From the IMG/VR virus record IMGVR_UViG_3300027858_000009, positions 1-47,245 of that record: a DNA stretch of 47,245 bases; one strand, 5' to 3'. The notes beneath the pieces were generated by a model, which had not been told where the DNA came from, searched no databases, and saw nothing but the letters and a program-made list of their open reading frames with translations. Below, in pieces: positions 836 to 33,924 of this stretch. Both the position numbers and the translations under genes were made by a program. The stretch is from a virus. How positions within the stretch are numbered: the stretch's first letter is position 1; every line of letters starts with the position of its first letter.

Positions 836-866
836 TCTAGCAAAAAGCAGTTTGTGTTCTATAATA
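836..866 (+). promoter_or_regulatory. Phage promoter copy P1 (TCTAGCAAA-N12-TTCTATAATA)
   Basis: Upstream box TCTAGCAAA at 836-844 and -10 box TTCTATAATA at 857-866, exactly 21 bases start to start as in six other copies. It points at the ribbon-helix-helix gene. The expected start of transcription is at about the first base of the operator array, so a bound repressor would block this promoter. Confidence 0.85.
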
Positions 867-870
867 TAGT

Positions 871-995
871 TGTAGCTACAGTTGTAGCTACAAATAGTCT
901 GTAGCTACAGAGTTGTAGCTACAAATAAACAGTCTGTAGCTACAAAATAAATCTGTAGCTACAAGTTGTAGCTACAAAAGTAATCTGTAGCTACA
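871..995. repeat. Eight-copy TGTAGCTACA operator array
   Basis: The perfect 10-bp palindrome TGTAGCTACA occurs at 871-880, 883-892, 900-909, 914-923, 935-944, 954-963, 967-976 and 986-995, with start-to-start distances of 12, 17, 14, 21, 19, 13 and 19. The last copy abuts the GGAGG of the regulator gene. I found no copies elsewhere in the window. Ribbon-helix-helix dimers typically bind short palindromes cooperatively in arrays, so these are most likely operators for the adjacent gene product. Confidence 0.9.
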
Positions 996-1007
996 AGGAG
1001 GATTACA

Positions 1008-1289
1008 ATGAAAAAGATATGCCAGTTTAGAATCGAAGATGAATTACAGTACGGATTCAAACAGTACTGTATCAGTAAAGATACTACTATGAGTAATGTA
1101 CTTATAGATTATATTACTACATTAGTAAAAAAGCCGGGTAAATCACCCGCTGAGAAAAAAAATTCGGTTAGGATGATGCCACCAACTGTACCATATCACT
1201 GTCCTTGGTGTGGAAAGGATATAACCCACCTAATTCCCCCAGATAGACTAAAACACCTTCAAAATTGCCAAAATGGACGAAAAGAGTGA
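1008..1289 (+). CDS. Ribbon-helix-helix regulator with C-terminal zinc finger
   Basis: A 93-residue protein. Residues 1-41 fit the Arc/MetJ-type ribbon-helix-helix fold: a beta strand (KKICQFRIEDEL) followed by two helices ending in VLIDYITTLVKK. Residues 64-87 carry CPWC followed by H74 and a HLQNC end, a likely Zn-binding C2HC unit. The start follows GGAGG. It is transcribed from the P1 promoter through eight palindromic operator copies, so negative autoregulation is the natural inference. It may also repress the divergent membrane-peptide operon. The combination of RHH and zinc finger is not one I can assign to a named family. Confidence 0.8.
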   Translation: MKKICQFRIEDELQYGFKQYCISKDTTMSNVLIDYITTLVKKPGKSPAEKKNSVRMMPPTVPYHCPWCGKDITHLIPPDRLKHLQNCQNGRKE

Positions 1290-1418
1290 TTTAGTTCTCG
1301 ATATATTCGTATACCTCCGTAATAACTTGTTTTGTTCCAGATATGCTTCATAATGGACTCGATCAGTTGATTTTGTTCCCGGCGATCAAAAAATCCTTTC
1401 GATATAAATGATTTCACT

Positions 1419-1775
1419 TTAGACAACCTCATTGGTAAGGTCTTCCAAACGCATCTCTTGCTCCTCTCTTTTCCGTGATTCCTCCACTTGTTTCTGTAAT
1501 TGCCTGCTTATCCGCTCCCACTCCGGGTCTTTCTTGTACCCAGGCTTCATTTTCTTTTCTGCTTCTTTATTAGCCTCCTTTTCTCTTTCTTCTTCTGTAA
1601 CATACAACTCTTCCTCTACTAAATCAGACTCGCGGTCCTTAGAACCAACAGCCACCAGATCAAAGTGCAGCAACAAATAAATCCCCCCGCATATGAGCCC
1701 AGCCAAAGCTACCGTACAGAAATGATACAGTAGTAAATACAAACATATAGATCCTATCAGGATAACTTTAAACAT
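1419..1775 (-). CDS. Membrane protein with charged coiled-coil tail
   Basis: 118 residues from the ATG at 1775, which has GGAGGT seven bases upstream; a longer frame exists but lacks a ribosome binding site. The N-terminus has two hydrophobic stretches (MFKVILIGSICLYLLLY and VALAGLICGGIYLLLHF). The rest is Glu/Lys-rich and predicted to be coiled coil. It is the last gene of the long leftward arm and sits behind the terminator that follows ssb, so it may be expressed separately or by read-through. Function unknown; spanin- or scaffold-like architecture only. Confidence 0.65.
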   Translation of the reverse strand: MFKVILIGSICLYLLLYHFCTVALAGLICGGIYLLLHFDLVAVGSKDRESDLVEEELYVTEEEREKEANKEAEKKMKPGYKKDPEWERISRQLQKQVEESRKREEQEMRLEDLTNEVV

Positions 1776-1848
1776 GGATCCTACCTCCAAAAGAATGCGG
1801 GTATTAAAAATTAAAAAGGTATACGAGTAAAAAAATTCGGTATATAAG

Positions 1849-1887
1849 AAAAAAGATAGGGCCAGCCCCAATTAAGAGGCTGACCCT
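1849..1887 (-). terminator. Rho-independent terminator after ssb
   Basis: Read leftward, AGGGTCAGCC (1887-1878) pairs with GGCTGGCCCT (1867-1858), ten pairs with one G-T, across a ten-base loop. The stem is followed by ATC and six T. It lies 37 bases past the ssb stop. Confidence 0.8.
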
Positions 1888-1924
1888 GTATTGGACGAAA
1901 TAGGGATACTACATTAGATTACTC

Positions 1925-2680
1925 TTAGAAAGGATTGATGGGCTGACCATCGGCCCCAACAGTCCCAGCAACCGGCGCATTAACTGGAGCACCAGCAGCT
2001 GTAGCAGCCGCAGCCGCCGTAAGAGCATTCATTTCGGCCTGCATCCGTGCAAGTTGAGCAGCCGTATCTGCCGGAGTTCCCGGAACGCTAGTCATTGGAG
2101 CACCAGCAGGCACGGGACTTCCAGCAACGAGCATACCTACGCCCTTGATGTAAACTTGGGCATTACCGTAACGACCAGTTTGCGCGGCGGTAGTGGGATT
2201 GTAATCGTAGGCAGGCTGCCTTTTAACCACGAGCAATTCCTCTGGCGTCATCGGGGCATTCGGATCCCTGGTGCCAGCTTCCTTCGCGGCTTGGATAGCG
2301 GCCATGTTTCCACCGATTCTCTTGGACAGGGCTTTCAAACTGTCGGCGGAGAATTCGAACCCCTTCACATGTATCGAAGTGGTCCTGTTCAGTTCTTTCT
2401 TACCATTGGGTTTGATGCGGCCTGTATCGACCGTATATGACCTCAACACACCATCCACGTTGATCGCTCTGCCCTTATCCAGGTACAGCGCTGCCGTCTG
2501 AGCATACTTTCCCCAGTAGACAAGCGTGAATTCGTCGGTCAGTTCAACACCCTGCTGGTTTTTCCCGCGATTCTTAATAACAGTAATCAGACACCTGTGT
2601 TTCTTAGGGTCATCTGCCGGGAAGAATGTTGGGGCTCCTGCCACTCTAACGTTACTTAAACTTACCATACTGTCTATCAT
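1925..2680 (-). CDS. ssb: Single-stranded DNA-binding protein
   Basis: 251 residues. The N-terminal ~115 residues look like an OB fold of the SSB family: SLSNVRVAGAP, then CLITVIKNRG, FTLVYWGKYAQTAALYLDKG and AINVDGVLRSY. A low-complexity Ala/Pro linker follows, and the protein ends in DGQPINPF, like the acidic-Pro-Phe tip by which SSBs recruit replication and repair proteins. The start follows GGAGGT. It is longer than the usual ~150-180 residues because of the extended linker. It coats ssDNA during phage replication, and a terminator follows. Confidence 0.85.
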   Translation of the reverse strand: MIDSMVSLSNVRVAGAPTFFPADDPKKHRCLITVIKNRGKNQQGVELTDEFTLVYWGKYAQTAALYLDKGRAINVDGVLRSYTVDTGRIKPNGKKELNRTTSIHVKGFEFSADSLKALSKRIGGNMAAIQAAKEAGTRDPNAPMTPEELLVVKRQPAYDYNPTTAAQTGRYGNAQVYIKGVGMLVAGSPVPAGAPMTSVPGTPADTAAQLARMQAEMNALTAAAAATAAGAPVNAPVAGTVGADGQPINPF

Positions 2681-2808
2681 GATGTTACCTCCGTAATAAT
2701 AAAAATGTTAATAAATGGGGTGAAAGTTCGTTTAGTTGCATACACCCTACTCGTCCAAACTCTGAAATTCTTTCAATTAAAAGGTTTGAGCTGCCATCAA
2801 GGCTGCCT

Positions 2809-3297
2809 TTAGAATGGGGGGCTGCTTTCGTCAATAGCCAGCAGTACTTCCCATTCCTTGCCTGCGAACAAGTCCCTGTGTACGTGGAATACAGCACTTT
2901 CTTTGATTAACTGAAGGAATATCTTTTCACCGTCTGCGTCATCGATCGAGAAGGCCGTCTTATCCCATTTCTTAGCGCCGCCAACAACCATGAATTGTAT
3001 TCCCTTAGAGGTAAATGCCAAAGGACCTTCGCACAATGGCGCTATCTCGTCTGACTCAAGCCAGGCCTTGAATACTAGGCTGTCCAGTGAGTAGGTATAG
3101 ACGAACAGCAGAGGCTTGTCATCTTGAACTTGATTGATTATCACGTCTACTCTCATACCGAAGGCAGTTTTAAAGTTGATCGCCTGGCCAATCGCCATCT
3201 TCTTCTCTTTCAAGAGGTTCTCCAGTAATTCCACTGAGGATATCAACGTAGCTCTCAGCGCTATATCCTTTACTACCGACATCAATAATCTTTCCAT
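2809..3297 (-). CDS. Hypothetical protein with SSB-like acidic C-terminal tip
   Basis: Up to 162 residues; family not recognised. The start at 3297 has GGAGG seven bases upstream but overlaps the preceding gene by 128 bases in another frame. An internal ATG at 3198 (MAIGQAINFK) would reduce the overlap to 29 bases but has only a weak Shine-Dalgarno. The protein ends AIDESSPPF, which resembles the acidic-plus-PF tip of SSB next door. It may belong to the ssDNA-handling module. Confidence 0.6.
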   Translation of the reverse strand: MERLLMSVVKDIALRATLISSVELLENLLKEKKMAIGQAINFKTAFGMRVDVIINQVQDDKPLLFVYTYSLDSLVFKAWLESDEIAPLCEGPLAFTSKGIQFMVVGGAKKWDKTAFSIDDADGEKIFLQLIKESAVFHVHRDLFAGKEWEVLLAIDESSPPF

Positions 3298-3592
3298 ATA
3301 ATGCTTCCTCCGTATGTGGGCCCTCTATGCCTACCAGGGGCTCATCTTGCATAACTTCCTGCAAGTCTGGGTTTAATCCAAGTAAGGCCTGCATGTCCGC
3401 TACTTCTTTGGGCAGTACCTTAACGATGTGCCGGTTGAGGGCGTCAAGAATGAAGCAAACTTCTTGTCCAATCTCAAATCCCTCATTTTTGCACTCGAAC
3501 TTGCCGCCGCGTGGTGCCACTATGGTAATCGTGCTCCCATTATGTGACACCGATCTGACTATGCCGTAATTGGCATTTATCCATCTACTCAT
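3170..3592 (-). CDS. Hypothetical protein, possible small beta-barrel N-terminus
   Basis: 140 residues from ATG 3592, preceded by a G6 ribosome binding site that lies in the end of the upstream gene. Residues 8-62 (IVRSVSHNGSTITIVAPRGG ... EVCFILDALNRHIVKVLPKE) alternate beta-like hydrophobics and Gly, suggesting a small barrel. The C-terminus is acidic (LEREEDGDWPGDQL). It overlaps its neighbours at both ends, including a long overlap with the gene starting at 3297. Function unknown; its position between ssb and the zincin suggests DNA metabolism. Confidence 0.65.
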   Translation of the reverse strand: MSRWINANYGIVRSVSHNGSTITIVAPRGGKFECKNEGFEIGQEVCFILDALNRHIVKVLPKEVADMQALLGLNPDLQEVMQDEPLVGIEGPHTEEALYGKIIDVGSKGYSAESYVDILSGITGEPLEREEDGDWPGDQL

Positions 3593-4208
3593 AGTCCCCC
3601 CAATCAGGTGGCTCCTCCATTTCCGAGACAGACTGTAGCACATACTCGGGGATATCTGCGTTACTGGGAATTTCTGGCAAGTTTTGTGGCATTGCATTCT
3701 CGATAGCCAGATTTGCCATTGGAGTGCCCGATGTGCCAGGAATGCCGTGAAAGTTAGGATCATTGATATCTTGATCAATGTGGCCATATGCGGCATCTAC
3801 CCGTGCCTCGTGCTCCGGCGCGTTATAGTTATATTGTGCCGGTTTAGTAGCAGTCTCAAAGGCAGGTACCCATGCACCATCCTGAATTCTTCCCAGCCAA
3901 CTACCTTTACGATCGATTACCCACATGATTTTGTGGCCCAGGCGTGCCAAGTTGGCGTTCGGCTTTAGGTTGCCTAAGTTGTCTGTCTTGTTGGGGTTCT
4001 GTTCGAGGCACCGGATTTGGACTATCTTATCACCAGCGTTGATGTCTACGTCAAAACCCCTAAGCGTCTGACTCACAAACCATCGCCCTGGGAATTTACC
4101 CATGTTGGTGATGATATTTACCTTGGTGATGTCAGTGTTACTCTGCTTGCTCTGAAACAGATTGTTGTAAATCCCCATCAGAATGTCCATCTTCTCTTGG
4201 TTCGTCAT
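3585..4208 (-). CDS. Hypothetical protein
   Basis: 207 residues from ATG 4208 (AGGAGGT six bases upstream; a longer frame has no signal). It has a compact N-terminal part of ~115 residues ending near MWVIDRKGSWLGRIQDG, then a Pro/Asn-rich flexible tail with the acidic end EMEEPPDWGDYE. No family recognised. It overlaps the end of the zincin gene by 71 bases, so translation is probably coupled. Confidence 0.65.
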   Translation of the reverse strand: MTNQEKMDILMGIYNNLFQSKQSNTDITKVNIITNMGKFPGRWFVSQTLRGFDVDINAGDKIVQIRCLEQNPNKTDNLGNLKPNANLARLGHKIMWVIDRKGSWLGRIQDGAWVPAFETATKPAQYNYNAPEHEARVDAAYGHIDQDINDPNFHGIPGTSGTPMANLAIENAMPQNLPEIPSNADIPEYVLQSVSEMEEPPDWGDYE

Positions 4209-4923
4209 GTGACCTCCTAAATTTGACTTGGTGAGTTGTGTTAATGGCATCGTAGGCGGTGAAGTATCTCTTTTTGTTAACAATTACTCCTACGTACCCG
4301 TCATCAATTGCGTCGAATAGTGCAAGCATGTCCTCCTTGTTTTCGTATTGTTGGTTGACAAGAGCGGCATGCATGGCATTGGCTACTGCCGTAGTGCCTT
4401 CCACTGCCATTTCGTCAACCACCTCATGCGGGGTTTGGGCGTACAGTCTGTTAAGTAGTGATTTGATCTGTTCGCCCACCCAATTCATTTCATTGAGCCT
4501 TGGGATGACTCCCTCTTTTGCCCATTCAAGTAACGAGTCTTCGGCAATTGTATTAGCTTCATCCTCGAACTCTTGCGGCAACTTGTCAAAGTCCAATAGC
4601 TCTGGGTCTTCTTCCAATTGGAATGCATGGGCCACCTCGTGGAATAAAGCAAAGACCAGATTGAACCAGACATTAGGGATATACATAACTCCCTTTTTCA
4701 TCCAGCTTCTGCTGTTAACACAATTACCCATGTCAATGATGACAATGCCGTTGTTGGGGTCAAAAGCGCCCAAACTACCTTTCAATTTGCCAATGAATGC
4801 GTCAAATACTATTGTTTTAATGATTGCGCATTCAGCTCCTGCCCTCTGAGCTATACTGACTAACTCTGGTGGGGCACCTTTGTTGTCGATGATGTGAACG
4901 TTTGGTTTTTGTACAATATCCAT
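4138..4923 (-). CDS. ImmA/IrrE-like zinc metallopeptidase
   Basis: 261 residues. The zincin motif HEVAH is at residues 95-99. It is followed after about 20 residues by EFEDEANTIAED, matching the HExxH ... E-x-EAN-x-FA pattern of ImmA/IrrE peptidases (H95, H99 and a Glu in 118-122 as probable zinc ligands, E96 catalytic). In mobile elements ImmA-type enzymes cleave repressors, so a regulatory or host-protein-cleaving role is possible but inferred. The start follows GGAGGT, and the 3' end overlaps the next gene by 71 bases. No HTH domain is visible in the protein. Confidence 0.7.
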   Translation of the reverse strand: MDIVQKPNVHIIDNKGAPPELVSIAQRAGAECAIIKTIVFDAFIGKLKGSLGAFDPNNGIVIIDMGNCVNSRSWMKKGVMYIPNVWFNLVFALFHEVAHAFQLEEDPELLDFDKLPQEFEDEANTIAEDSLLEWAKEGVIPRLNEMNWVGEQIKSLLNRLYAQTPHEVVDEMAVEGTTAVANAMHAALVNQQYENKEDMLALFDAIDDGYVGVIVNKKRYFTAYDAINTTHQVKFRRSHDEPREDGHSDGDLQQSVSEQAE

Positions 4924-4965
4924 TTTGTTACCTCCGTTTTGCTGGTTTATATGCGGTTAGAGCTG

Positions 4966-5247
4966 CTAGGGCAGTTTCTTAAATGAGGCTGTTAGTTGAT
5001 CTATTGCCTCGGTGTTTTGTGATAACATTGTGTCAAAACACTTGCTTATCAGTGTTTGAGCATGCCTTACATCTGGTAGTTCTGTGCTTGCGTCTATTGC
5101 TTCATTCAATTCCTCCATTAGTTCTTCAAGCTTTTGGCCTTGAGAGTATTCACCACTCTCGCTGAAGTCATCCTCGTACTTATGGACCACCTCGTTTTGC
5201 TCTATGAACTCTATCATATTTCGTGATGCTCTCACTAAATTTGGCAT
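4966..5247 (-). CDS. Small acidic helical protein
   Basis: 93 residues, Glu/Asp-rich and predicted all-helical (EELMEELNEAIDASTEL; AIDQLTASFKKL). GGAGGT lies just upstream of the ATG. It is part of the leftward early arm, between the zincin and a 65-residue protein. No family recognised. Confidence 0.65.
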   Translation of the reverse strand: MPNLVRASRNMIEFIEQNEVVHKYEDDFSESGEYSQGQKLEELMEELNEAIDASTELPDVRHAQTLISKCFDTMLSQNTEAIDQLTASFKKLP

Positions 5248-5284
5248 AATACACCTCCTGTTAGTTCATTCGCGGTTAGAGCCG

Positions 5285-5482
5285 CTAAGGCTGTTGTACT
5301 ATCCTGGCTATTGGGTCTGTTACTAACGTGTCGCCGTTCTTTAGGGCTTTAAGTATTGATTTGTTTGATGGAGTCCACCAGCAGATCATGTGGCGCGTGA
5401 TCTGGCCATCTATTGCTTTTGTAGTGATGTATGTGACTGGGCCTTTGTGTCGTATCTTGTCAATTGTCATTTTCTCTGGCAT
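5285..5482 (-). CDS. Small hypothetical protein
   Basis: 65 residues with alternating hydrophobic residues (GPVTYITTKAIDGQITRHMI) that look beta-rich, followed by a helix SILKALKNGD. GGAGGT lies upstream. Function unknown. The 217 bases upstream are non-coding and contain a direct repeat. Confidence 0.65.
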   Translation of the reverse strand: MPEKMTIDKIRHKGPVTYITTKAIDGQITRHMICWWTPSNKSILKALKNGDTLVTDPIARIVQQP

Positions 5483-5533
5483 GTTGCACCTCCTAACTTG
5501 GCTGTTGTTGCTGTTAATTGCGTATGGCCGTTC

Positions 5534-5657
5534 TACTGGCTGGACATCACCGACTGTTACGCCTGGCTATGCAGGCTGTTAGCTATTACACTGTTCTGGT
5601 CGAGCTTGGCCACTATTCAGTACTGGCTGTACTGGCTGGACATCTTGACCGGTTACG
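5534..5657. repeat. Imperfect 28-bp direct repeat in an intergenic region
   Basis: TACTGGCTGGACATC followed by a variable six bases and a shared GTTACG occurs at 5534-5561 and 5630-5657, 96 bases apart. A partial third copy of TACTGGCTG starts at 5621. The gap 5483-5699 has no supported gene. Possible protein-binding or replication-related site. Confidence 0.5.
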
Positions 5658-5699
5658 TAACACCCTTTACCAATACAAATTGGCTTTAGACCACTCATA

Positions 5700-6461
5700 T
5701 TACTTAGCCTTTGCGAAAGGGTCTTGGACATTACCAACTACCTTGCTATGATTTGTCCATTGTGGGGTATTCTCAACAGGCATGCCCGGTGTGGGTACTG
5801 AGGCAGTAACCCCTTGAAGCTCATCTATCCGCGCTTGAAGCACTGCCAACTTGGCTTGTATTTCAGCTTGTGCATTACCACCAGTTGTCAAAGGAGCAGG
5901 CGTGCCGTCTGGATTTAACGGGTGATACACTACCTTATTGGCATACTCTTGTTCAGTAAGTACTTTGATAGAGTCACCATAATTGGTGTACACCATTATC
6001 AAGAGCTCGACCTTTGGAGTCTTGTCTTTGGCCAGGAACCATGAGGGAACTAACTGATGGTTCATAGTGAGTATCTCTACCTTAGCCCCCTTACGGCACC
6101 TACTATGCTCTGCTGGAGGAACGAGTACTCCATAGTCATCCATGAATGAGAACAGTTTGAACCTGTATACAGGGAACATACCATTTGTTCGGTTGGTAAT
6201 AGCATCAGCATCTCGTTTGTCCTGTTTGGGACCGAAAGCGGGGTAAACAGTGCCTTCAGAGATTGCTAAAGCTTTACCATCTGGACTGGTGAGATAGGTT
6301 AACAACAGACCACATTTAGGACAGTTGCTCAATTCATGAGAAGAGTACATACCCTTACATCCAGGACAAGTCCTGTCAAACAGTTTGTTGTCGTGACCTA
6401 AATAACCGACTATCTTAAACGCATAATTCACACTCTTGTTGTTCTGTACTTGATTTTCCAT
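5700..6461 (-). CDS. Zinc-ribbon protein of the SSB neighbourhood
   Basis: 253 residues. A CPGC ... CPKC zinc ribbon lies at about residues 33-51. A mixed domain follows to ~190, then a short coiled coil (AEIQAKLAVLQARIDELQG) and a Pro-rich tail ending NVQDPFAKAK. The layout of domain, flexible linker and Asp-Pro-Phe near the C-terminus recalls the SSB in this arm. A second ssDNA-binding or SSB-partner protein is possible, but this rests on architecture only. GGAGGT lies upstream of the ATG. Confidence 0.6.
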   Translation of the reverse strand: MENQVQNNKSVNYAFKIVGYLGHDNKLFDRTCPGCKGMYSSHELSNCPKCGLLLTYLTSPDGKALAISEGTVYPAFGPKQDKRDADAITNRTNGMFPVYRFKLFSFMDDYGVLVPPAEHSRCRKGAKVEILTMNHQLVPSWFLAKDKTPKVELLIMVYTNYGDSIKVLTEQEYANKVVYHPLNPDGTPAPLTTGGNAQAEIQAKLAVLQARIDELQGVTASVPTPGMPVENTPQWTNHSKVVGNVQDPFAKAK

Positions 6462-6550
6462 TGTAATACCTCCAAGTTTAGTTTACTACCTCGTCACTTT
6501 TTATGGGAGTTTAGAACCCGACAGGTTAGGTAGTCCAGCCCTATTAACGA

Positions 6551-7033
6551 CTAATAATCTATTTCCTTCAGATTGTGGAGAATACGGGCCAATTCCGCAA
6601 TAAGAGGTAAAGATTCTATCTTCATTCTTCTGTCAAACAGTTCATTTGCAAAATATTTGGCAAGATCTACCACATACTCTTCAGGTGTGATATAACCACC
6701 GTGTATTTGGGTAGTGGGGTACACATATGATATAATCTTTTTTATAAGTTCCTCTTTTTTAATTGTAGGTGGTGTATCCTCTTCTTTTGGTTTCTCGGTT
6801 GGAAGTGGCATTTTCCCTTCCATCATACGTTGTATGTCGCCCCCATCTCCAGAATGTGATTTATACCATTCTGCATCTGTGGCTTCCAGTAATAGTTCGT
6901 ACGCAAACCTTTTGGCACCATATGGGGTTAAACTTATAACACCTTCACCATAGTGGGGATTTCCAGTACCATTTACTGGGGTTCCAGCCAAATGTATTTC
7001 TACATTACCTTCGTGATTGTGTGTTACTTGCAT
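6551..7033 (-). CDS. Hypothetical protein
   Basis: 160 residues from ATG 7033 (AAGGAG upstream; an upstream ATG at 7069 lacks a site). The N-terminal half looks like a small alpha/beta domain (NVEIHLAGTPVNG ... GVISLTPYGAKRFAYELL). A Pro/Glu linker and a helical C-terminus follow. No family recognised. Its Shine-Dalgarno lies in the last codons of the 52-residue zinc-finger gene. Confidence 0.6.
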   Translation of the reverse strand: MQVTHNHEGNVEIHLAGTPVNGTGNPHYGEGVISLTPYGAKRFAYELLLEATDAEWYKSHSGDGGDIQRMMEGKMPLPTEKPKEEDTPPTIKKEELIKKIISYVYPTTQIHGGYITPEEYVVDLAKYFANELFDRRMKIESLPLIAELARILHNLKEIDY

Positions 7034-7035
7034 AA

Positions 7036-7194
7036 TTATTCTCCTTTCTCTGAATAGATTTTTTCCCATTTCTCCGATTCACCGGGTATACAAGATGTGT
7101 GGTGGACTACTTCTTCTTTCTTAGAAGCAAATGCTCCACAATCATTGCATACCCACATCTTTGCCTCATCTATGTAGGTGTATTTGTTTATCAT
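7036..7194 (-). CDS. 52-residue zinc-finger protein
   Basis: Begins MINKYTYIDEAKMWVCNDCG. The CNDC pair at residues 16-19 and H31/H32 with C35 (HHTSC) give a C2HC-type zinc site. GGAGGT is upstream of the ATG. The stop is two bases before the next start, indicating coupling. Function unknown. Confidence 0.65.
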   Translation of the reverse strand: MINKYTYIDEAKMWVCNDCGAFASKKEEVVHHTSCIPGESEKWEKIYSEKGE

Positions 7195-7206
7195 ACTACC
7201 TCCTTT

Positions 7207-9174
7207 TTAGAATGCTACTGCTGTAGGCTCTATACCACAAAGCCAGTCCATCCCATCTGGGTTATCGATTGGCGTGGCCGCACTGTCGTCATTGATTAAA
7301 GGTTTATTGGAAGGGTTACATAACTCATAGTAACTCTCCTTATCGTCTTTGTGCATTTTAACTACATCTCGTTGCCATGCGTTAATGATACCACATATAT
7401 CACTATTGTTGACAAGACTATCACCAATGGTATACTGCTGTCTTACCTGATATGTCCCACCATTAAGTTCAATAGTAACATACCCAACATCATCTTTTCT
7501 CATAGAGAATATGAGAGAGTGCCCACTTAAACATCTGTCTACATACCCACCTACGCAGTGGTGCATTACTACTCCTTCTTCTACGAGAGCTGCTGGGGTA
7601 CCAATAAACTTGAATTGAAATCCACTATATAACTTGCTTGGTGCATCAAAAGTAAGAAAGTTCTTATGCTTGTACTTTACTAAGACTTGTCTGTCACGAG
7701 TTTGAATAGCAACAAGGTGGGTATGAAATTGTAGCACATCATCTAAGTCATTGAATTTGCGTGGTCTAACACGTACATGGTATCTTTCAGCCATGTTGTA
7801 CATATCTCTCCACATATAAACAGTTGGTGGTGGCTGACCCTTTTTTATGAATCGTAGGGCAGTAACAGCCCATTTGTCAGTTATATCTGGGCGACCTTCG
7901 GCAGTATCATTTAACGCATTGTATATACTTCCTAAGGCATGCCGTTTATTAGAATTGTCCAAATCACTGTTAATTATAGCATGTAACAGATGGTGTATTG
8001 TTTTGGGCATACTTTTTTCGTTTATATGGGATGCTATATGGGTGTACACAATTATATCAGGATCGTACGGCATCAACTTCAGTAGTATTTTGGTGTATAA
8101 TTTCCCAAATATAGATTCAATTAAGGACGTATAGTTTGTGTACTTTCTCAAATGCGGTATGAATTTACGAATCTTAGACCTATGCACTTTGTTTAGGAGG
8201 TCGTGGTCTGACTCAGAAACTAACCCATCTTTCGTTAAGAAGAACTTATTATGTAGTATCGCACTCGCTTTTATATATAGTGCCTGATCAATCCAATCCA
8301 CTCTTTTGCCGAGTTTGTGTTGTAATACCAACAATTCAACTGGATAGGCCCAGTTACTGGTCATTTCATAAGACAGTAGTGGGGTGTAAACATCAGGTAC
8401 GTCACATTTAACAGCCTTTTCTATTTCTTCTACGAATTTGCGAACTATGTAGTTATCTCCTGATATGTGTGCTGCACATAACATATAATTCATAAGAACG
8501 CCGTGTATTACGTATTTGTAACGATTCTTTGTGCCTGATTTAACTTTGTAGATTTTATACAAATTTCTAGTTTTCTTGTTATAGGTTAGCATTTTGTTTT
8601 GTGGCGATTGTTCTGAGGTAATATTCCTAACTCTATCAAACCAGTAACTAACTCTTACGTATCTAATTTTATCACCACTTATTGAAATACTCTTTTTGTG
8701 AAGTATTACTGTGTCTGGATTTGTTCCAACCCCACAGGCTGTCATGGTGTATACCTTCTTATCCTCGTATATCCTACTACCTGGGCCTAACACATTCTTA
8801 GGAGGGCAGAGTTGAAATTGTGGTGGGCACATTTTCTGATCAGTTGGTTCGTGGTATTCAAGCTCTGGTTTTAATATTAATGTTTCTGGTATCTCTGGCG
8901 TCTCAATTTCTTCAAAATTATATCTATCTCTTGGCGTTGATGTAGATACATTACTGTTGGTGTTGGATACTAAATTAATGATATCGCGGTCATCTTTAGT
9001 AAATGCTGGGTTATCATCTGGTTCTATTGTATCCACAGCCCTTTGTACAATTTGGTTAATACGGCGGTGAACGTTTTCCTCCTCGTCATATTGATTTATG
9101 TCCATCAAGTATTGTCTATAACTGGGATCTAACTTCGCTATAACGTTATAGTCAAATACATACGTATTTTTCAT
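7207..9174 (-). CDS. PcfJ-like domain protein
   Basis: 655 residues from ATG 9174 (GGGGG eight bases upstream). It is the largest gene of the leftward arm. The C-terminal ~130 residues match the PcfJ pattern: EEGVVMHHCVGGYVDRC, then SLIFSMRKDD, a beta strand YVTIELNGGTYQVRQQY, an Asn pair and a Trp in GIINAWQRDV. The N-terminal ~500 residues have no recognised domain. PcfJ-type proteins occur on conjugative plasmids and phages with no settled biochemical role; the conserved H-C-G motif suggests a catalytic or metal site. Confidence 0.65.
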   Translation of the reverse strand: MKNTYVFDYNVIAKLDPSYRQYLMDINQYDEEENVHRRINQIVQRAVDTIEPDDNPAFTKDDRDIINLVSNTNSNVSTSTPRDRYNFEEIETPEIPETLILKPELEYHEPTDQKMCPPQFQLCPPKNVLGPGSRIYEDKKVYTMTACGVGTNPDTVILHKKSISISGDKIRYVRVSYWFDRVRNITSEQSPQNKMLTYNKKTRNLYKIYKVKSGTKNRYKYVIHGVLMNYMLCAAHISGDNYIVRKFVEEIEKAVKCDVPDVYTPLLSYEMTSNWAYPVELLVLQHKLGKRVDWIDQALYIKASAILHNKFFLTKDGLVSESDHDLLNKVHRSKIRKFIPHLRKYTNYTSLIESIFGKLYTKILLKLMPYDPDIIVYTHIASHINEKSMPKTIHHLLHAIINSDLDNSNKRHALGSIYNALNDTAEGRPDITDKWAVTALRFIKKGQPPPTVYMWRDMYNMAERYHVRVRPRKFNDLDDVLQFHTHLVAIQTRDRQVLVKYKHKNFLTFDAPSKLYSGFQFKFIGTPAALVEEGVVMHHCVGGYVDRCLSGHSLIFSMRKDDVGYVTIELNGGTYQVRQQYTIGDSLVNNSDICGIINAWQRDVVKMHKDDKESYYELCNPSNKPLINDDSAATPIDNPDGMDWLCGIEPTAVAF

Positions 9175-9195
9175 TTTACACCCCCTCTCTGATAA

Positions 9196-9215
9196 GGGGG
9201 CCTTGGTAAGCCCCC
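9196..9215 (-). promoter_or_regulatory. Intergenic GC hairpin
   Basis: GGGGGC (9196-9201) pairs with GCCCCC (9210-9215). The hairpin lies between the stop of the 100-residue gene and the start of the PcfJ-like gene. There is no T tract, so an mRNA-stabilising or processing element is more likely than a terminator. Confidence 0.5.
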
Positions 9216-9224
9216 ATGTTAAGT

Positions 9225-9527
9225 TTATTGCTTCATACAAAGACTACATAAAGGTAGCCCTGCATCTTTTGGGCGTACAAGATATGCCTCAACAGTCTTC
9301 TTACCATGTTTGGTACACCCATCCTTATGCACCATACCAGTGCCTGTGTTGATAACGAACTTTCTTATTTTGCTGTTGACAATTTGACGAACACAGGAAT
9401 TGTCATCCTTCATCTGTTTGTAGAGCTTTTGCCCTACTTGAATGATTGGGTAACTGGTGCCTTGTTTTTTCATCGCACTCAAAGCTGCCTTTACATCGCC
9501 CGATTTTGTATTGCATATTGCGTACAT
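9225..9527 (-). CDS. Small protein with metal-binding His-Cys C-terminus
   Basis: 100 residues from ATG 9527 (AAGGGAG upstream). The last ~40 residues, with VHKDGC and, after about 25 residues, GLPLCSLC, fit the short H..C ... C..C metal-binding module seen at the ends of several secreted and nuclease-associated proteins. The N-terminal part (YAICNTKSGDVKAALSAMKK) is unrecognised. Function unknown. Confidence 0.6.
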   Translation of the reverse strand: MYAICNTKSGDVKAALSAMKKQGTSYPIIQVGQKLYKQMKDDNSCVRQIVNSKIRKFVINTGTGMVHKDGCTKHGKKTVEAYLVRPKDAGLPLCSLCMKQ

Positions 9528-9632
9528 GTTTGTTCTCCCTTTTCGTACCAATGATACTTTGTGAATTTAGACATCAGTCGGTGCCCACGAGTGGTACGAT
9601 GTCTCTGATGAGCACCTTTATTCCGCTTCTGG

Positions 9633-9809
9633 TTAAACTTTTTGTTTCCATTTCGTCTTGGCATTATTTATTGATATTACCCCCCTTATTTGTTTCCAAA
9701 TGGTTCGTTCATAAAGCCAACATAATTCCCTGGATAATCGCCGGGGAAATACCTTCCTAAGTCTACAATAGACATGGAGAGGGTTAAGCCAATGTTGTAA
9801 TCTATGCAT
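9633..9809 (-). CDS. Small basic protein
   Basis: 58 residues from ATG 9809, with AAGGGGGTG six bases upstream; a GTG three codons earlier overlaps that site. Strongly basic and Trp-rich (MHRLQHWLNP, RLRKVFPRRLSREL, KTKWKQKV), consistent with nucleic-acid binding. The 105 bases between its end and the next gene contain only short frames without ribosome binding sites. Function unknown. Confidence 0.5.
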   Translation of the reverse strand: MHRLQHWLNPLHVYCRLRKVFPRRLSRELCWLYERTIWKQIRGVISINNAKTKWKQKV

Positions 9810-9841
9810 ATCAATCACCCCCTTTAGGGATAGTTAGAGTT

Positions 9842-10162
9842 CTATATTACACCACTAATGGAGTGTTTGAATCGTCTACATGTAAGATGGTATACGTTGT
9901 AAATGCCCCTCTTAGTCACGCCTATTTTGGGGCAATCCCATATTTGCTGGTTATGGGTGGCACACTTTAGTTTCATCATAGATGTTCTCAGTCTCCAAAG
10001 CGCATAACCAACGCCTTCTTGTTTGGTTATGAGGTATTTGAGGTTAGTAATTGGGACCCATTTGTTACCCACCTTTTTCTTAGGTGTACACCACTGTTTT
10101 GTGTAGGTATTTAGGGTCTGCCTAAACTCTGCTATCTGTGGTTGGTTTGTTTGATTTGCCAT
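9842..10162 (-). CDS. Hypothetical protein
   Basis: 106 residues from ATG 10162 (GGAGGT upstream; an earlier ATG at 10240 lacks a site and overlaps the neighbour). Basic, with conserved-looking Cys and His (LKCATHNQQIWDCP ... HLTCRRF) that could bind zinc. No family recognised. Confidence 0.6.
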   Translation of the reverse strand: MANQTNQPQIAEFRQTLNTYTKQWCTPKKKVGNKWVPITNLKYLITKQEGVGYALWRLRTSMMKLKCATHNQQIWDCPKIGVTKRGIYNVYHLTCRRFKHSISGVI

Positions 10163-10163
10163 T

Positions 10164-10319
10164 TTAACACCTCCATCCATTTTGCCTCCCCCAGAACTCT
10201 TCGTTCTCACGGAGTTTTTGTTTATGCCATGTATCTTCACTGATATACTCGTTAATGGTTATAGGTTTATTATAGGGAAACAATTTACTTAGAACCCACT
10301 GAACTAATTTCTTCATCAT
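10164..10319 (-). CDS. 51-residue hypothetical protein
   Basis: Begins MMKKLVQWVLSKLFPYNK, an amphipathic N-terminus, and ends in a charged Trp-containing tail. AGGAGGTG is upstream. It overlaps the end of the zinc-finger gene at 10285, and its stop is one base before the next ATG. Possible membrane-surface peptide; function unknown. Confidence 0.55.
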   Translation of the reverse strand: MMKKLVQWVLSKLFPYNKPITINEYISEDTWHKQKLRENEEFWGRQNGWRC

Positions 10320-10500
10320 TGTCACCTCCTAATTGAGTGTTTTGTATACCGCCCCCTAATTGTTTTGGGATTGGTAGATATTTTGATGGTGTATCGTTAC
10401 AAACAGCACTTTTACCACATATTTCACATGCGCCCATAGATTTCATGAAAGTATCTATAGGCCAACCTCTTTCTTTACCACACGTATGACAATAGAACAT
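10285..10500 (-). CDS. Zinc-finger protein
   Basis: 71 residues with CHTC at 4-7 and CEIC at 25-28, a four-Cys zinc ribbon, followed by a Gly/Asp-rich tail. AGGAGG is upstream of the ATG. It overlaps the next gene by 35 bases. One of many small zinc-binding proteins in this arm; function unknown. Confidence 0.65.
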   Translation of the reverse strand: MFYCHTCGKERGWPIDTFMKSMGACEICGKSAVCNDTPSKYLPIPKQLGGGIQNTQLGGDNDEEISSVGSK

Positions 10501-10501
10501 A

Positions 10502-10798
10502 TTACTTACCTCCTGTGTTGTTTACTACAAGTTTTAACTTCTTTTCTACCACGATGGGAACTTTCTTGACACCGAGGATTTCCATACAGATAGACCGCCC
10601 AACTTCGAGTTCATCAATTAGGCCACCCAATCCATCAAAAGCTTTACGTGCGTCTATAGCTCTTTTATGCATTTGCCTACTAATTGCATGGTCCTTTAGT
10701 AATCCAGATTGGGCCCTTGCTTGACGTAGTAGGTTAATACGCTTGTCTAACATGTCCAAGTTTCTTTTAGCTTTAGCTTGTGTTTTTACTATAGTCAT
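10502..10798 (-). CDS. Helical hypothetical protein
   Basis: 98 residues, basic and helical in the first two thirds (QAKAKRNLDMLDKRINLLRQ), then a beta-like stretch VPIVVEKKLKLVV. GGAGGT is upstream. No family recognised. Confidence 0.6.
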   Translation of the reverse strand: MTIVKTQAKAKRNLDMLDKRINLLRQARAQSGLLKDHAISRQMHKRAIDARKAFDGLGGLIDELEVGRSICMEILGVKKVPIVVEKKLKLVVNNTGGK

Positions 10799-10882
10799 TT
10801 GATTACCTCCGAGTATTAAAAGATTAAAGGATTCAAGGACTTTAAAAATCGCAGATTACACTTCATCAGCTATTCGTATTAT

Positions 10883-11035
10883 CTATACATAGATGTCCAC
10901 GCCTCCTGGAGTAAGTTGTTTGAGTTTAATTTCCTTTATTTGTTTTACTGGTTTAGGTTGTTCCACTATTCGCTCATATACAAGAACGAATTTACCATAC
11001 TTAATACCAAACCTCACTATCTTACATTCTGGCAT
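10883..11035 (-). CDS. 50-residue hypothetical protein
   Basis: Begins MPECKIVRFGIKYGKFVLVY; the whole protein looks beta-rich with a Lys/Pro-rich middle. GGGAGGTG is upstream of the ATG. The 84 bases between its stop and the next start hold nothing I can support. Confidence 0.55.
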   Translation of the reverse strand: MPECKIVRFGIKYGKFVLVYERIVEQPKPVKQIKEIKLKQLTPGGVDIYV

Positions 11036-11038
11036 CAA

Positions 11039-11353
11039 TCACCTCCCTTCAGACAAATGTTTGAATTCTTCATCCATTACTTCTCGTAAAGCTTCTTCCT
11101 TTGTAGACGGTTTAGATTTAGTGCTGTACTTTTTGTGCCTGGGCCGTACCCGAAATCTATGGGACAAGTGAGTGGGCTGTTGGTCCATGATATCCAATAT
11201 TGAGTCAAGACCAGTACTTACTGGGTTAGGATCTTCTTTAACTTCAAGTACTGGTTCAGGAACCCCGTCTGACTTTACCTCTAATACCAACTTATCGAAC
11301 CTGCCTTGCCATTTACGATTACATAACATAACTAACCAAGTTACAAGTTTCAT
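11039..11353 (-). CDS. Hypothetical protein
   Basis: 104 residues. A short hydrophobic N-terminus (MKLVTWLVMLC) is followed by a charged, Pro-rich disordered region and an acidic/basic helix (STKEEALREVMDEEF). Its ATG is one base past the preceding stop, with GGAGG upstream. Function unknown. Confidence 0.55.
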   Translation of the reverse strand: MKLVTWLVMLCNRKWQGRFDKLVLEVKSDGVPEPVLEVKEDPNPVSTGLDSILDIMDQQPTHLSHRFRVRPRHKKYSTKSKPSTKEEALREVMDEEFKHLSEGR

Positions 11354-11354
11354 A

Positions 11355-11825
11355 TCAGTCCTCCATGCATATATCCATTAGTTTCGGCATGTATAAGTCA
11401 GTGATTGTTTCGTACTTATCCTTCCTTGACATGTATGCGCCAGCTGTTGTCAGGAACATCTCTGATAGTACACGAAGTACTTTTGCTCTAAGCTCGTCCC
11501 TGGGGGACATCCTTGTGGGGTCCACTTCAATATTGTACTCATCTATATCGTACCATCTGCTAAACCGTTCTTCACCATCGTACATATCAATGGTCTCTTC
11601 GTAGACATTGAAGTTGTGTTTTTCTATATACAGTTTGGCCTTTTCTAAAGACCCGAACACTCCGCATACTATGCCACCCGATAGTTCTAATTCGCCCCCT
11701 TTCTCGCATAGTGAGTGTTGCCTAACTATATAGACTATGGGCAACTTTTCATCTTGTTTACAGTCCCACACTCTAACTTCCTTGCCTTTTACTATTACGA
11801 CATCTCCTTTAGTTTGGCTTTTCAT
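11355..11825 (-). CDS. Hypothetical protein
   Basis: 156 residues. The middle segment, VYIVRQHSLC ... GIVCGVFGSLEKAKLYIEKH, resembles small phage/bacterial domains in which an aromatic-Ser-x-x-x-Ala helix follows a beta strand (DUF7336-like pattern, tentative). The C-terminal half is helical (LRAKVLRVLSEMFL). AAGGAG is upstream. Confidence 0.55.
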   Translation of the reverse strand: MKSQTKGDVVIVKGKEVRVWDCKQDEKLPIVYIVRQHSLCEKGGELELSGGIVCGVFGSLEKAKLYIEKHNFNVYEETIDMYDGEERFSRWYDIDEYNIEVDPTRMSPRDELRAKVLRVLSEMFLTTAGAYMSRKDKYETITDLYMPKLMDICMED

Positions 11826-11840
11826 AGTATTATCTCCTTT

Positions 11841-12152
11841 CTATTCTATTTTCATTAATTGTTCTATTTGAAGATCTGACATTACACAATACTTTGGATA
11901 TCCAGGTTCTTCGTATATCTCTCCTTCTTTTACTTCGCCGTATGAATCGCCTCCTTTCCATTTCAAAATGGTGTTTGAGGTTTTTGGATCAATTCTTAAA
12001 GATCCTATTGGATACTTCATCTTACATTTTTCTTTAAGTATTCTAATTTCCTCATCTAATATCCAAGAAGGGTCTGCGAGTGTGGGGACTACTCTTGCTT
12101 CCACTGCGAGAAGGGTCATAGTAACTATAAATGATAGTAATAAGATTTTCAT
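11841..12152 (-). CDS. Secreted small protein
   Basis: 103 residues from ATG 12152 (AAGGAG upstream; an earlier ATG at 12227 lies in the neighbour). The N-terminus is a clear Sec signal peptide, MKILLLSFIVTMTLLAVEA, with cleavage expected near residue 19. The mature part contains two Cys (KCKMKYP, PKYCVM) that could form a disulphide. Possibly exported to the envelope early in infection. Family not recognised. Confidence 0.65.
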   Translation of the reverse strand: MKILLLSFIVTMTLLAVEARVVPTLADPSWILDEEIRILKEKCKMKYPIGSLRIDPKTSNTILKWKGGDSYGEVKEGEIYEEPGYPKYCVMSDLQIEQLMKIE

Positions 12153-12163
12153 AATAATACTCC

Positions 12164-12379
12164 TTAATATGCTATTCCATCTTTCCAGATTTCTGTCTTT
12201 GAAACGATGGGTTTGTAGTATACCCAATTTACGAGCTTGTCAGTACAACCTAACAGAATAACAAATTCACCATAGCCAGTGCGACCGAAGTCTATTTCCC
12301 ACAATGCATAAGCACCGGAGTAATATACTCTAAAGTACTTCCGCTCTATCAGTCGCAAGTGTTTTTGGACATTCCTCAT
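12164..12379 (-). CDS. Hypothetical protein
   Basis: 71 residues, aromatic-rich (RKYFRVYYSGAYALWEIDF) and beta-like. GGAGG is upstream; the start overlaps the end of the next gene upstream by four bases (ATGA-type coupling). Function unknown. Confidence 0.6.
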   Translation of the reverse strand: MRNVQKHLRLIERKYFRVYYSGAYALWEIDFGRTGYGEFVILLGCTDKLVNWVYYKPIVSKTEIWKDGIAY

Positions 12380-12576
12380 TTAGATTCCTCCTTTTCAAAC
12401 AGTTCAAGTTTATTGGTTGAATACATATCATTATCAGTGCATAGATATATATAGGCCATACCACGAAAAGTATTGGTTATAGGTTCTGGGATGTAATAAG
12501 GTTGTCCTGTACTGACGAACCCTATTGCTTTGACACCGATTAAGAATACGATATCGAATCTCTTTTTGACCACCAC
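12376..12576 (-). CDS. Hypothetical protein, GTG start
   Basis: About 66 residues. A GTG at 12576 or 12573 is the start; both are spaced five to eight bases from GGAGG, whereas a GTG at 12582 overlaps it. The N-terminal region is hydrophobic (RFDIVFLIGVKAIGFV), possibly one membrane span or a beta core. Coupled to genes on both sides. Function unknown. Confidence 0.5.
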   Translation of the reverse strand: MVVKKRFDIVFLIGVKAIGFVSTGQPYYIPEPITNTFRGMAYIYLCTDNDMYSTNKLELFEKEESK

Positions 12577-26635: not shown

Positions 26636-26666
26636 TCTAGCAAATTCAAAAATGTATTCTATAATA
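26636..26666 (+). promoter_or_regulatory. Phage promoter copy P5
   Basis: TCTAGCAAA at 26636-26644 and TTCTATAATA at 26657-26666. It precedes the two lysis-enzyme candidates and the tRNA cluster. Confidence 0.87.
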
Positions 26667-31638: not shown

Positions 31639-31669
31639 TCTAGCAAAGTTGAAATTGTGTTCTATAATA
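31639..31669 (+). promoter_or_regulatory. Phage promoter copy P6
   Basis: TCTAGCAAA at 31639-31647 and TTCTATAATA at 31660-31669. It lies 37 bases before the clpP start and about 100 bases after the iterons. Confidence 0.87.
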
Positions 31670-31706
31670 AATATAATAAATTTTTAGAATTACGGAGGAA
31701 TTATTT

Positions 31707-32288
31707 ATGAGCGTGCCTTATGTGATTGAAGGATCGGAAAACAACGAAAGAGTGTATGATTTATATTCAAGACTTTTGAAAGACCGTGTGATTTTTATTG
31801 GTAAAGAATTTACAGAAGATTTAGCTAATTCAGTAGTAGCTCAGTTATTGTTTTTAGAAGCGGATAATCCCGAGAAGGATATTATAATTTATATTAATAG
31901 TCCTGGCGGATTCCTGTCTGCTCAGACAGCTATTTTTGATACTATGAATTATGTGAAACCGGATATAAGCACTGTTTGTATTGGACAAGCTGCGAGTGCT
32001 GCTGCGTTTACCTTAGCAGCTGGTACGAAGGGGAAAAGAAGTGCATTGAAGAATGCTAGAATTATGTTTCATCAGGTGTCAGGTGGTGCCTCAGGCCATA
32101 TAGATGATATGAGAATACATATGAAGGAAACAGAGTTTTTAAATGAGAGAATGATTGCTGAAGTGGCTAGAATTACTAAAAAAACAATTAAAAGAATTAA
32201 ACAAGATTTAAGCAGGGATTATTTTATGGGTGCGGAAGAAGCTAAAAAATACGGAATCATCGATGAAGTTTTGTATATGAGAAGTTAA
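31707..32288 (+). CDS. clpP: ClpP-type serine protease
   Basis: 193 residues, the length of mature cellular ClpP. Catalytic triad: Ser97 in GQAASAAAFTLAAG, His122 in ARIMFHQ, Asp171 in LSRDYFM; INSPGG (63-68) gives the oxyanion strand and the C-terminus EAKKYGIIDEVL is typical. Such subunits form two stacked heptamer rings and degrade unfolded substrates fed by a Clp ATPase; none is encoded here. GGAGG is upstream. Operon partner of a coiled-coil protein and an actin-like ATPase. In other phages ClpP-fold proteases mature the prohead, but a separate candidate exists at 42595. Confidence 0.9.
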   Translation: MSVPYVIEGSENNERVYDLYSRLLKDRVIFIGKEFTEDLANSVVAQLLFLEADNPEKDIIIYINSPGGFLSAQTAIFDTMNYVKPDISTVCIGQAASAAAFTLAAGTKGKRSALKNARIMFHQVSGGASGHIDDMRIHMKETEFLNERMIAEVARITKKTIKRIKQDLSRDYFMGAEEAKKYGIIDEVLYMRS

Positions 32289-32289
32289 T

Positions 32290-32892
32290 ATGTCAAGGAT
32301 CAGGTATAACAAAGAAAAATCATCTAGCAAACAGTTGGGTGGCGGTGGTCCGCGAGACAGGCAAGCGGCTTTGAAATTACAGCAACAAAGAGAGTTAATT
32401 AAGCGTGAGGCTTTAGTAGAAGCGTCAAAACAACCGGAAATTGATCTTTCTCAGTATTTACCTTTTGATGAGGTTAGAACAAAAATAGCGGACGCAGTGG
32501 CGTCTACAGTAGTGTCAGAGCGTAAAAAATTTGAAAGTAGTTTGAAAAGTTTGGAAGACCGGTTACAAGAAAAAGATGTGGTTATTTCTAAACTAAGGTA
32601 TGAGCTTGACACAGAATCATCGAAGCGTTTAGAAGGATTAAAATTTAAGTTGGATAAATTATATGACAGAATATCTGATGGGTCTATACAACATTTAGTG
32701 GGCAGTAAGATGGGACGTCCAGCATTAGAAAATAATATATTTATAGATCCGATTGAGAAAGATGTAGACCCAAAATTAGATGCACATATAGATATAAAAG
32801 AAGATGCAACTTCAGAAGAAGTATCGGATCGTGATATAAATACAGATTTAGTTAAATTGCGAAATTTACTAAAATGCAAGGAGGAATTATGA
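32290..32892 (+). CDS. Coiled-coil protein of the ClpP/actin operon
   Basis: 200 residues. Basic Gly-rich N-terminus (KSSSKQLGGGGPRDRQ), a central coiled coil (FESSLKSLEDRLQEKDVVIS and on) and an acidic C-terminus. It starts two bases after the clpP stop and overlaps the actin-like gene by four bases. Its place suggests an adaptor or partner of one of the two enzymes. Family not recognised. Confidence 0.6.
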   Translation: MSRIRYNKEKSSSKQLGGGGPRDRQAALKLQQQRELIKREALVEASKQPEIDLSQYLPFDEVRTKIADAVASTVVSERKKFESSLKSLEDRLQEKDVVISKLRYELDTESSKRLEGLKFKLDKLYDRISDGSIQHLVGSKMGRPALENNIFIDPIEKDVDPKLDAHIDIKEDATSEEVSDRDINTDLVKLRNLLKCKEEL

Positions 32893-33887
32893 TGGGTATT
32901 AAAGGGGCTGGGTTAGATATAGGAACTAATATGTTGGTTTCAGCTATTATGAATGAGGAAGGTAATCCGGTATATAAAAGACAGAGAGATGCTTTTTTCA
33001 AACTGGTTCCTAAATCAGAAGTTAATCGTAAAAGTATTCAGATGTCTTTAGAAGGACGTAAGGCAAATTTTATTATAGATGGCGATGCTTTTATTGTGGT
33101 AGGTGAAGATGCGTTGCATATGGCTAATGAAAGAAATTTGGAAGCTAGGCGCCCAATGAAACGTGGGGTATTATCCCCCAAAGAAAAAACTTCTTTACCT
33201 ATGATTAAGTTGATTATAAAAAGTTTAATAGGCCAAGGGACTGGCGATGATAAATTAATTTTTTCTATACCAGCAGAACCCATTGATGGTGACTTCGATA
33301 TTTTTTATCATACAGAAATGATGAAAGCTTATTTGAAAGAAATGGGGTTTAATGCTGAACCTTTAAATGAGGGATTTGCTATTGCTTTTTCAGAATTATT
33401 GGATGATAATTTAACAGGTATGTGTTTGTCTTTCGGTGCTGGCATGGTCAACGTAGTGGTTTGTTATGAGGGAGACCCGATAGTTCAATTCTCTCTTACT
33501 AAGGGCGGTGATTGGATAGACAGTTCTGTTGGCAAAGCTTTAGATTTAAGTGCATCATTAGTGCAAATTGAAAAGGAAGAATCTAAAGTAAATTTGTTAA
33601 AGCCCAAAGGACAAATTCAAGAAGCTATTGTAGTTTATTATAATGTTTTAATGAATTATGCTCTTGATAATATTGTTTATGAGTTAGAAAGGTTTAAGCT
33701 TCCATCCTTTAGGGAGCCTATCCCTATTGTGGTCTCAGGAGGTTTAGCTTTAGCCACTAATTTTGTGGATAGGTTTAAAATAGAAGTAGGGAATAAAAAG
33801 TTTCCTTTTGAAATAAAAACAATTCGTAGAGCTAAAGACCCAATGACTTGTGTGGCTCATGGATGTTTGATGGCTGCTATTTTATAA
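32889..33887 (+). CDS. Actin/ParM/Hsp70-superfamily ATPase
   Basis: 332 residues from ATG 32889 (GGAGG upstream; the earlier ATG at 32874 overlaps that site). Phosphate-1 loop GAGLDIGTN (6-14), connect-1 NEGFAIAF (about 160-167), phosphate-2 CLSFGAGMVNVVV with GGDWID, and adenosine loop VVSGGLAL (about 282-289) are the full nucleotide-binding set of the actin fold. It is nearest to the ParM/MreB/plasmid-segregation type by size. It could form filaments that position phage DNA, capsids or the nucleoid. Third gene of an operon with ClpP. Confidence 0.8.
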   Translation: MMGIKGAGLDIGTNMLVSAIMNEEGNPVYKRQRDAFFKLVPKSEVNRKSIQMSLEGRKANFIIDGDAFIVVGEDALHMANERNLEARRPMKRGVLSPKEKTSLPMIKLIIKSLIGQGTGDDKLIFSIPAEPIDGDFDIFYHTEMMKAYLKEMGFNAEPLNEGFAIAFSELLDDNLTGMCLSFGAGMVNVVVCYEGDPIVQFSLTKGGDWIDSSVGKALDLSASLVQIEKEESKVNLLKPKGQIQEAIVVYYNVLMNYALDNIVYELERFKLPSFREPIPIVVSGGLALATNFVDRFKIEVGNKKFPFEIKTIRRAKDPMTCVAHGCLMAAIL

Positions 33888-33893
33888 CAATTG

Positions 33894-33924
33894 TCTAGCA
33901 AATTTAGTAAAATATTCTATAATA
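33894..33924 (+). promoter_or_regulatory. Phage promoter copy P7
   Basis: TCTAGCAAA at 33894-33902 and TTCTATAATA at 33915-33924, just behind the actin-like gene. The leader below it carries the perfect palindrome CGCCTTATAAGGCG (33933-33946), a probable mRNA hairpin ahead of the cold-shock gene. Confidence 0.87.

Follow-up and report, generated by a model that had tools for sequence, protein, structure and literature searches.

A Putative Promoter Class with a Substituted −35 Box in Large Tailed Phages and in Phages of Unrelated Structure

Which factor reads a phage promoter that has a perfect sigma-70 −10 hexamer and something other than TTGACA at the −35 position? The question is raised by IMG/VR virus record IMGVR_UViG_3300027858_000009 (47,245 bases; the whole stretch analyzed, hereafter the window), a fragment of a large tailed phage in which an element made of a 9-base box, TCTAGCAAA, and a −10 box, TTCTATAATA, recurs in seven exact copies, all on the + strand (Table 1). 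Here, we report that the element is almost certainly, as judged from sequence comparison, a promoter class with a substituted −35 box, which recurs in a clade of relatives and in two phages of unrelated structure, and we weigh what might read it.

The two box starts lie 21 bases apart in all seven window copies, and every copy is placed in a gap, 32 to 142 bases 5′ of a start codon. No window site with one to three mismatches to the motif was found (shuffled expectation, 0.13), and the − strand carries no copy, so none serves the leftward arm of the window. Copy 4 begins two bases past the T-run (21123 to 21128) of a terminator-like hairpin (21096 to 21122). These results bear out an initial annotation of the window, which had described exact + strand copies at fixed spacing, all in gaps before genes, one directly after a terminator and none serving the leftward arm. 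An automatic sigma-70 scan of window positions 1 to 20000 returned 45 promoter-like sites versus 61 in shuffles.

A logo was built from 77 nonredundant sites from relatives and reads, from offset −2, TR-TCTAGCAAA-WT-N4-A-WW-N-TR-TTC-TATAAT-A-TA-NN-T-R, with TRTTCTATAATA as the consensus stretch between AWW-N and TA-NN-T-R. The 12 bases between the boxes, which the initial annotation took to be unconserved, are in fact partly conserved (offset 9, W; offset 10, mostly T; offset 15, A in 87%; offsets 16 and 17, W). Offsets 19 to 21 are TRT, with a G variant (TGTTCTATAATA) in the copies at 836 and 31639. The TATTC 5′ of the −10 hexamer is as invariant as the TCTAGCAAA box, and the region immediately 5′ of the motif is A+T-rich. 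Conservation also extends beyond the 31-base motif described earlier, to a T/R directly 5′ of the box (TRTCTAGCAAA) and to T35-R36 (T, 82%; A or G, 93%), which is likely the −1/+1 initiator and whose position fits the expected bacterial start site. With R36 taken as +1, TATAAT lies at −12 to −7 and the box at −36 to −28, so that CTAGCA occupies the position of TTGACA with a 17-base spacer. The −10 hexamer (TATAAT, ∼100%) is that of canonical sigma-70 promoters, with a purine start; TTGACA at 16 to 18 bases is absent, and CTAGCA stands at 17 bases instead, as the initial annotation had seen in calling the −10 sigma-70-like and the −35 noncanonical. CTAGCA keeps three of the six TTGACA bases and differs by three transitions (T to C, G to A, and A to G). 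Box spacing is fixed, with 12 intervening bases at 72 sites and any other spacing at no more than 4.

An exact 19-position pattern was found in IMG/VR in 51 stretches on ∼37 contigs, often several per contig; the reversed-pattern control gave 5 stretches, one per contig, on contigs without any clade gene. A scan allowing up to two mismatches found sites in 38 of 42 records, on a single strand per record, with no control matches; the other four records, all motif-less relatives, had none. Equal frequency inside genes and on the other strand, named in the initial annotation as what would speak against promoters, was not what the relatives showed: of 86 sites, as placed against gene calls made by a simple script on contigs that are fragments, 75 were fully in gaps, 8 overlapped just a gene end, and 3 were inside called open reading frames (12% of the DNA is gap; binomial, 4e-57), and in all 27 records with at least two sites every site was on one strand. 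The spacer and initiator preferences lay outside the search pattern and therefore served as an independent test of authenticity, with scores in the phage clade of median 12.3 and minimum −1.2. Among the bacterial and archaeal chromosomal contigs of 84,980 genomes, in a test that would miss degenerate host promoters or a host outside the collection, five matches were found, all chance-like (scores, −10 to −26). A sixth cellular-genome match fell in a Lokiarchaeota bin, on a phage-clade contig with two promoter copies (JAEORV010000165.1); a second contig of that bin has a one-mismatch copy, and both contigs are probably misbinned phage DNA. No cultured phage carried the full motif, and searches of the literature with the box string and related topics found no such phage promoter.

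The change at −35 can be placed by comparison with a sister clade. In a tree of 79 terminases, made by a quick method while a careful search was unfinished, all 18 motif-bearing rows fell inside one 42-row clade (support, 100). The 37-row sister group had no motif rows, and in 8 of its rows the protease gene was preceded by a canonical promoter. At this orthologous prohead-protease site, sister phages have, for example, AACTTGACAAAGACATAAACATGCATATATT, whereas the motif clade has TATCTAGCAAAATTATAAAAATATTCTATAAT. The two are alike in locus, in their 16- to 17-base spacing, and in the AA trailing the hexamer; they are unlike in that the motif clade has CTAGCA for TTGACA and a −10 region fixed to TATTCTATAATA. 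In one long-branched phage of the motif clade this place reads TTTACAAA, with TATTCTATAATA unchanged; this single site could represent either an intermediate or a reverted state. When hexamer pairs with at most one mismatch each were counted over all gaps, the motif clade had 25 TTGACA promoters versus 21.3 in shuffled sequence and 82 CTAGCA promoters versus 9.6, and the sister clade had 42 versus 15.6 and 6 versus 9.3, respectively. These reciprocal counts point to a phage-wide replacement of −35 recognition rather than to a few odd promoters added. An archaeal TATA reading of the element was considered and is weighed against by the canonical bacterial promoters at the orthologous sister-clade sites.

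Nearly all motif contigs have many clade genes; the exceptions are two contigs, here G010 (1 of 23 genes) and G012 (4 of 33). G010 is a siphophage-type fragment whose terminase is ∼35% identical to those of unrelated phages; it has three motif sites (matrix scores, 45.5, 33.9, and 22.3). G012 has a different head module and one site (48.7). Spacer and initiator scores at these sites (12.0, 6.7, and 1.5 in G010; 15.1 in G012) are within the clade range, and the sample numbers in the contig names (3300018080 and 3300031578) recur among the large-phage clade or the terminase relatives. As far as sequence can tell, the motif extends beyond one phage family, and its presence in both contigs points to a factor that either belongs to a common host or is mobile. 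The phage-specific promoter of the initial annotation therefore stands as a promoter family, though not as one confined to a single phage family.

The genes behind the motif suggest a temporal class. Syntenic copies, under gene names given partly by eye, precede genes for the prohead protease, the cold-shock protein, the C92 peptidase, and thymidylate-synthase-like, clamp-loader-like, endolysin-like, and other proteins. From this gene content, and from the absence of the motif in the divergent arm, the motif would serve post-early genes for replication, nucleotide metabolism, head maturation, and lysis. The leftward arm is partly conserved in a relative, G018 (SSB-like, PcfJ-like, and five other genes), where again no copy serves the arm; the two copies that lie inside it face in the opposite direction, and one of these leads into an HNH-type gene. 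This layout fits an early arm set against a later, motif-bearing class. The early arm of G018 (50.5 to 67 kb, L163 and L162) also carries an element, ACCCGCCGGGGTTAAATTT, repeated in several gaps, possibly an early promoter or operator of that phage.

It is quite probable that unrelated phages have a switch in −35 specificity in common, brought about either by a mobile, phage-encoded substitute for sigma region 4 or by a bacterial lineage with a sigma that recognizes TCTAGCAAA in place of TTGACA. As reader of the box we favor a putative phage-supplied, post-early factor, with a probability of about 0.5. Comparative sequence analysis shows that sigma-70-type geometry is kept (perfect TATAAT at −12 to −7 and a purine start) and that the −35 box has changed from (C)TTGACAAA to TCTAGCAAA; since TTGACA is not above chance in the motif phages, the RNA polymerase domain that reads −35 would have to differ from ordinary sigma region 4. 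A factor made early would supply the contact to TCTAGCAAA, and sigma region 2 would open the −10. It could be a diverged sigma, a stand-in for sigma region 4, or an activator acting with sigma remodeling (compare T4 middle transcription), and the unrelated motif-bearing phages would hold the same factor via horizontal transfer. The initial annotation had proposed a phage activator, an appropriated sigma, or a modified polymerase as possible readers; none was found. Several results weigh against a phage factor. No sigma-70 region 2 or 4 domain (PF04542, PF04545, and PF08281) scored above cutoff in the genome fragments, and a multisubunit RNA polymerase (beta′-like PF04998) had no match in 22 records, with controls matched. 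G010 and G012, unrelated in structure, share the motif, for which a shared host factor is the simpler account. TTGACA is likewise missing from the putative early promoters in both the window and G018, so that its reading by the host is an assumption. A search for MotA (PF09114) matched 0 of 22 records and was uninformative, because no control genome matched either.

Reading by a host sigma, be it the primary one with its −35 specificity changed or an alternative one, is the less probable but serious alternative. Phages of that host, unrelated ones included, would have adapted their promoters to it, and the sister clade would infect hosts with an ordinary sigma-70. The same box, spacer preferences, and initiator at the three G010 sites and the one G012 site, the sample numbers common to these contigs and to the large-phage clade or its terminase relatives, TTGACA promoters at chance throughout the motif clade, and the lack of any phage sigma found are all as such a host would have it; a leftward arm without the motif and the chance-like matches in cellular genomes (−10 to −26 against a phage median of +12) are not. 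It is rather unlikely that TCTAGCAAA is the site of a DNA-binding regulator (a repressor or a class II activator) laid over a weak −35, with an otherwise ordinary sigma-70 holoenzyme: a strictly conserved 9-base box suits a regulator site, and CTAGCA does retain half of TTGACA at 17-base spacing, but the box replaces −35 at a fixed 17-base register in essentially every promoter, the TATTC 5′ of the −10 is equally invariant, and there is no second operator nearby (1 of 75 sites, as by chance). That the repeats are no promoters at all, and serve, for example, replication, packaging, or recombination, seems very improbable. Their strong conservation and repetition would fit such a role, but not the perfect −10, the initiator, the gene-wise orientation, the placement before ribosome-binding sites, or the replacement of TTGACA promoters at orthologous loci.

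Among candidate proteins, the NusG/RfaH-like protein of the window was the sole gene singled out by presence/absence over both clades (21 motif records and 6 further clade members; 0 of 25 sister records). Its occurrence follows the motif clade, and it may have an effect on elongation; as box reader it was rejected, because NusG proteins work in elongation and it was not found in the G010 and G012 fragments. A 188-residue protein 3′ of the sliding clamp (L156, 18724), tried as a gp55-like sigma, gave a helical model of fair confidence (pLDDT, 77) with no fold match and no PDB relative, and is also present in the sister clade. Genes of the early arm were rejected as the source of the factor, being common to G018 only. 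A second TCTAGCAA box at 15441, considered as an early/late switch like that of phi29 p4, has a counterpart nowhere else among 75 sites and was put down to chance. A TTGACA after the major head gene of relative G014 was rejected as proof of host use of TTGACA, since the site encodes a stretch of the head protein.

Table 1. Features of the window, with start sites predicted from the logo
Feature	Position	Strand	Predicted +1	Remarks
Promoter copy 1	836..866	+	872	TCTAGCAAA at 836-844, TTCTATAATA at 857-866; exact match; gene 1008-1289 downstream
Leftward (putative early) arm	1419..15354	−		Motif-free; partly kept in G018
Promoter copy 2	15485..15515	+	15521 (T, off consensus)	Divergent gap; upstream of 15560-16060
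Promoter copy 3	16121..16151	+	16157	Upstream of 16216-16398
Terminator-like hairpin and T-run	21096..21128	+		Directly before copy 4; seen in sequence
Promoter copy 4	21130..21160	+	21166	Upstream of 21192-21542
Promoter copy 5	26636..26666	+	26672	Upstream of C92-peptidase-like gene 26771-27298
Promoter copy 6	31639..31669	+	31675	Upstream of ClpP-like prohead protease gene 31707-32288
Promoter copy 7	33894..33924	+	33930	Upstream of cold-shock protein gene 33980-34195; relatives syntenic
NusG/RfaH-like protein	36929..37414	+		Pfam PF02357, E 3.4e-7; phrog_6386; RfaH and NusG chains in PDB

Copy 5 has a counterpart before the C92 gene of relative G026, and copy 6 has orthologous promoters at seven other motif-clade loci. 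The gap between copy 1 and its gene is filled (871 to 995) by eight copies of the palindrome TGTAGCTACA; the gene product (93 residues) has a ribbon-helix-helix-like N terminus, as seen by eye (Pfam RHH_1 was unmatched), and a zinc-ribbon-like tail. Unrelated phage G010 has a like layout (L017, 11934 to 12052) with a different repeat, TGTGCCCACA, followed by a protein of weak similarity (BLASTP, 8e-5). Repeat array and protein together look like an autorepressor with its operator array.

The leftward arm of the window (∼1.4 to 15.4 kb) is followed by a rightward arm of small genes and then by genes for the ClpP-like prohead protease, an actin-like protein of the Volactin family, the cold-shock protein, a deoxynucleoside monophosphate kinase, an HD protein, the NusG-like protein, terminase, portal, and head proteins. 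A 150-kb relative (G009) starts where the window stops, in the head genes, and then carries tail, replication (clamp and RecA), and other genes, all on one strand; the full phage genome is thus probably longer than 190 kb. Cultured relatives are remote (terminase identity, at most ∼32%), and among cultured phages the window portal matches that of Bacillus phage G only (21% identity). The actin-like protein (32889 to 33887; Pfam Volactin, 2.4e-68) bears a family name that points to archaea; the sister clade of this phage uses bacterial promoters. A tRNA with a CTA anticodon (29188 to 29258; called tRNA-Pyl by ARAGORN and confirmed as a tRNA by Rfam) is a possible suppressor or pyrrolysine tRNA; TAG ends 21 of the 101 called genes in the window, that of the portal among them. 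A protein with a caspase domain (Peptidase_C14) and, at its N terminus, a membrane-like segment (20115 to 21071) is kept in relatives.

Few readings in bacteria are as conserved as the −35 contact of sigma-70. At the same place before the same gene, one of two sister phage clades has TTGACA and the other has TCTAGCAAA, so that a wholesale change in promoter recognition can be mapped onto a tree and what caused it can be sought. The motif also serves as a high-specificity tag, which finds genome fragments and links unrelated phages that maybe share a host or a regulator. A mobile phage stand-in for sigma region 4, if true, would extend sigma appropriation beyond the T4 family; a host sigma, if true, would mean a bacterial lineage with a TCTAGCAAA-reading sigma, seen first via its phages.

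Known phage promoter systems resemble the motif in part. The phage-encoded sigma factors of SPO1 define a phage-specific promoter class for middle and late genes. Phages phiEco32 and 7-11 likewise have promoters of phage-encoded sigma factors, with short TGATGT/TATA-type motifs and a detected sigma in 7-11 (PMC4331800). The motif is like these in marking a phage-specific class for middle and late genes, and unlike them in its two boxes, its standard TATAAT, and the lack of a detectable sigma. T4 late promoters (gp55/gp33/gp45) are without an upstream −35 element (PMC2988020 and PMC7892883), whereas the upstream box here is nearly invariant and the most informative part; the likeness lies in a late gene class and in the motif clade encoding its own sliding clamp. 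T4 middle promoters have a MotA box, WWWTGCTTtA, 12 ± 1 bases from the −10 and depend on sigma appropriation by AsiA/MotA (PMC2988021). The MotA box tolerates changes, whereas TCTAGCAAA is near invariant, 15 bases from the hexamer, and in exact −35 register; as it differs in both box sequence and spacing, the motif was not filed with the T4 middle family. It nevertheless resembles T4 middle promoters in a stringently kept host-type −10 at −12 to −7, a phage element in place of the −35, and the post-early genes that they serve.

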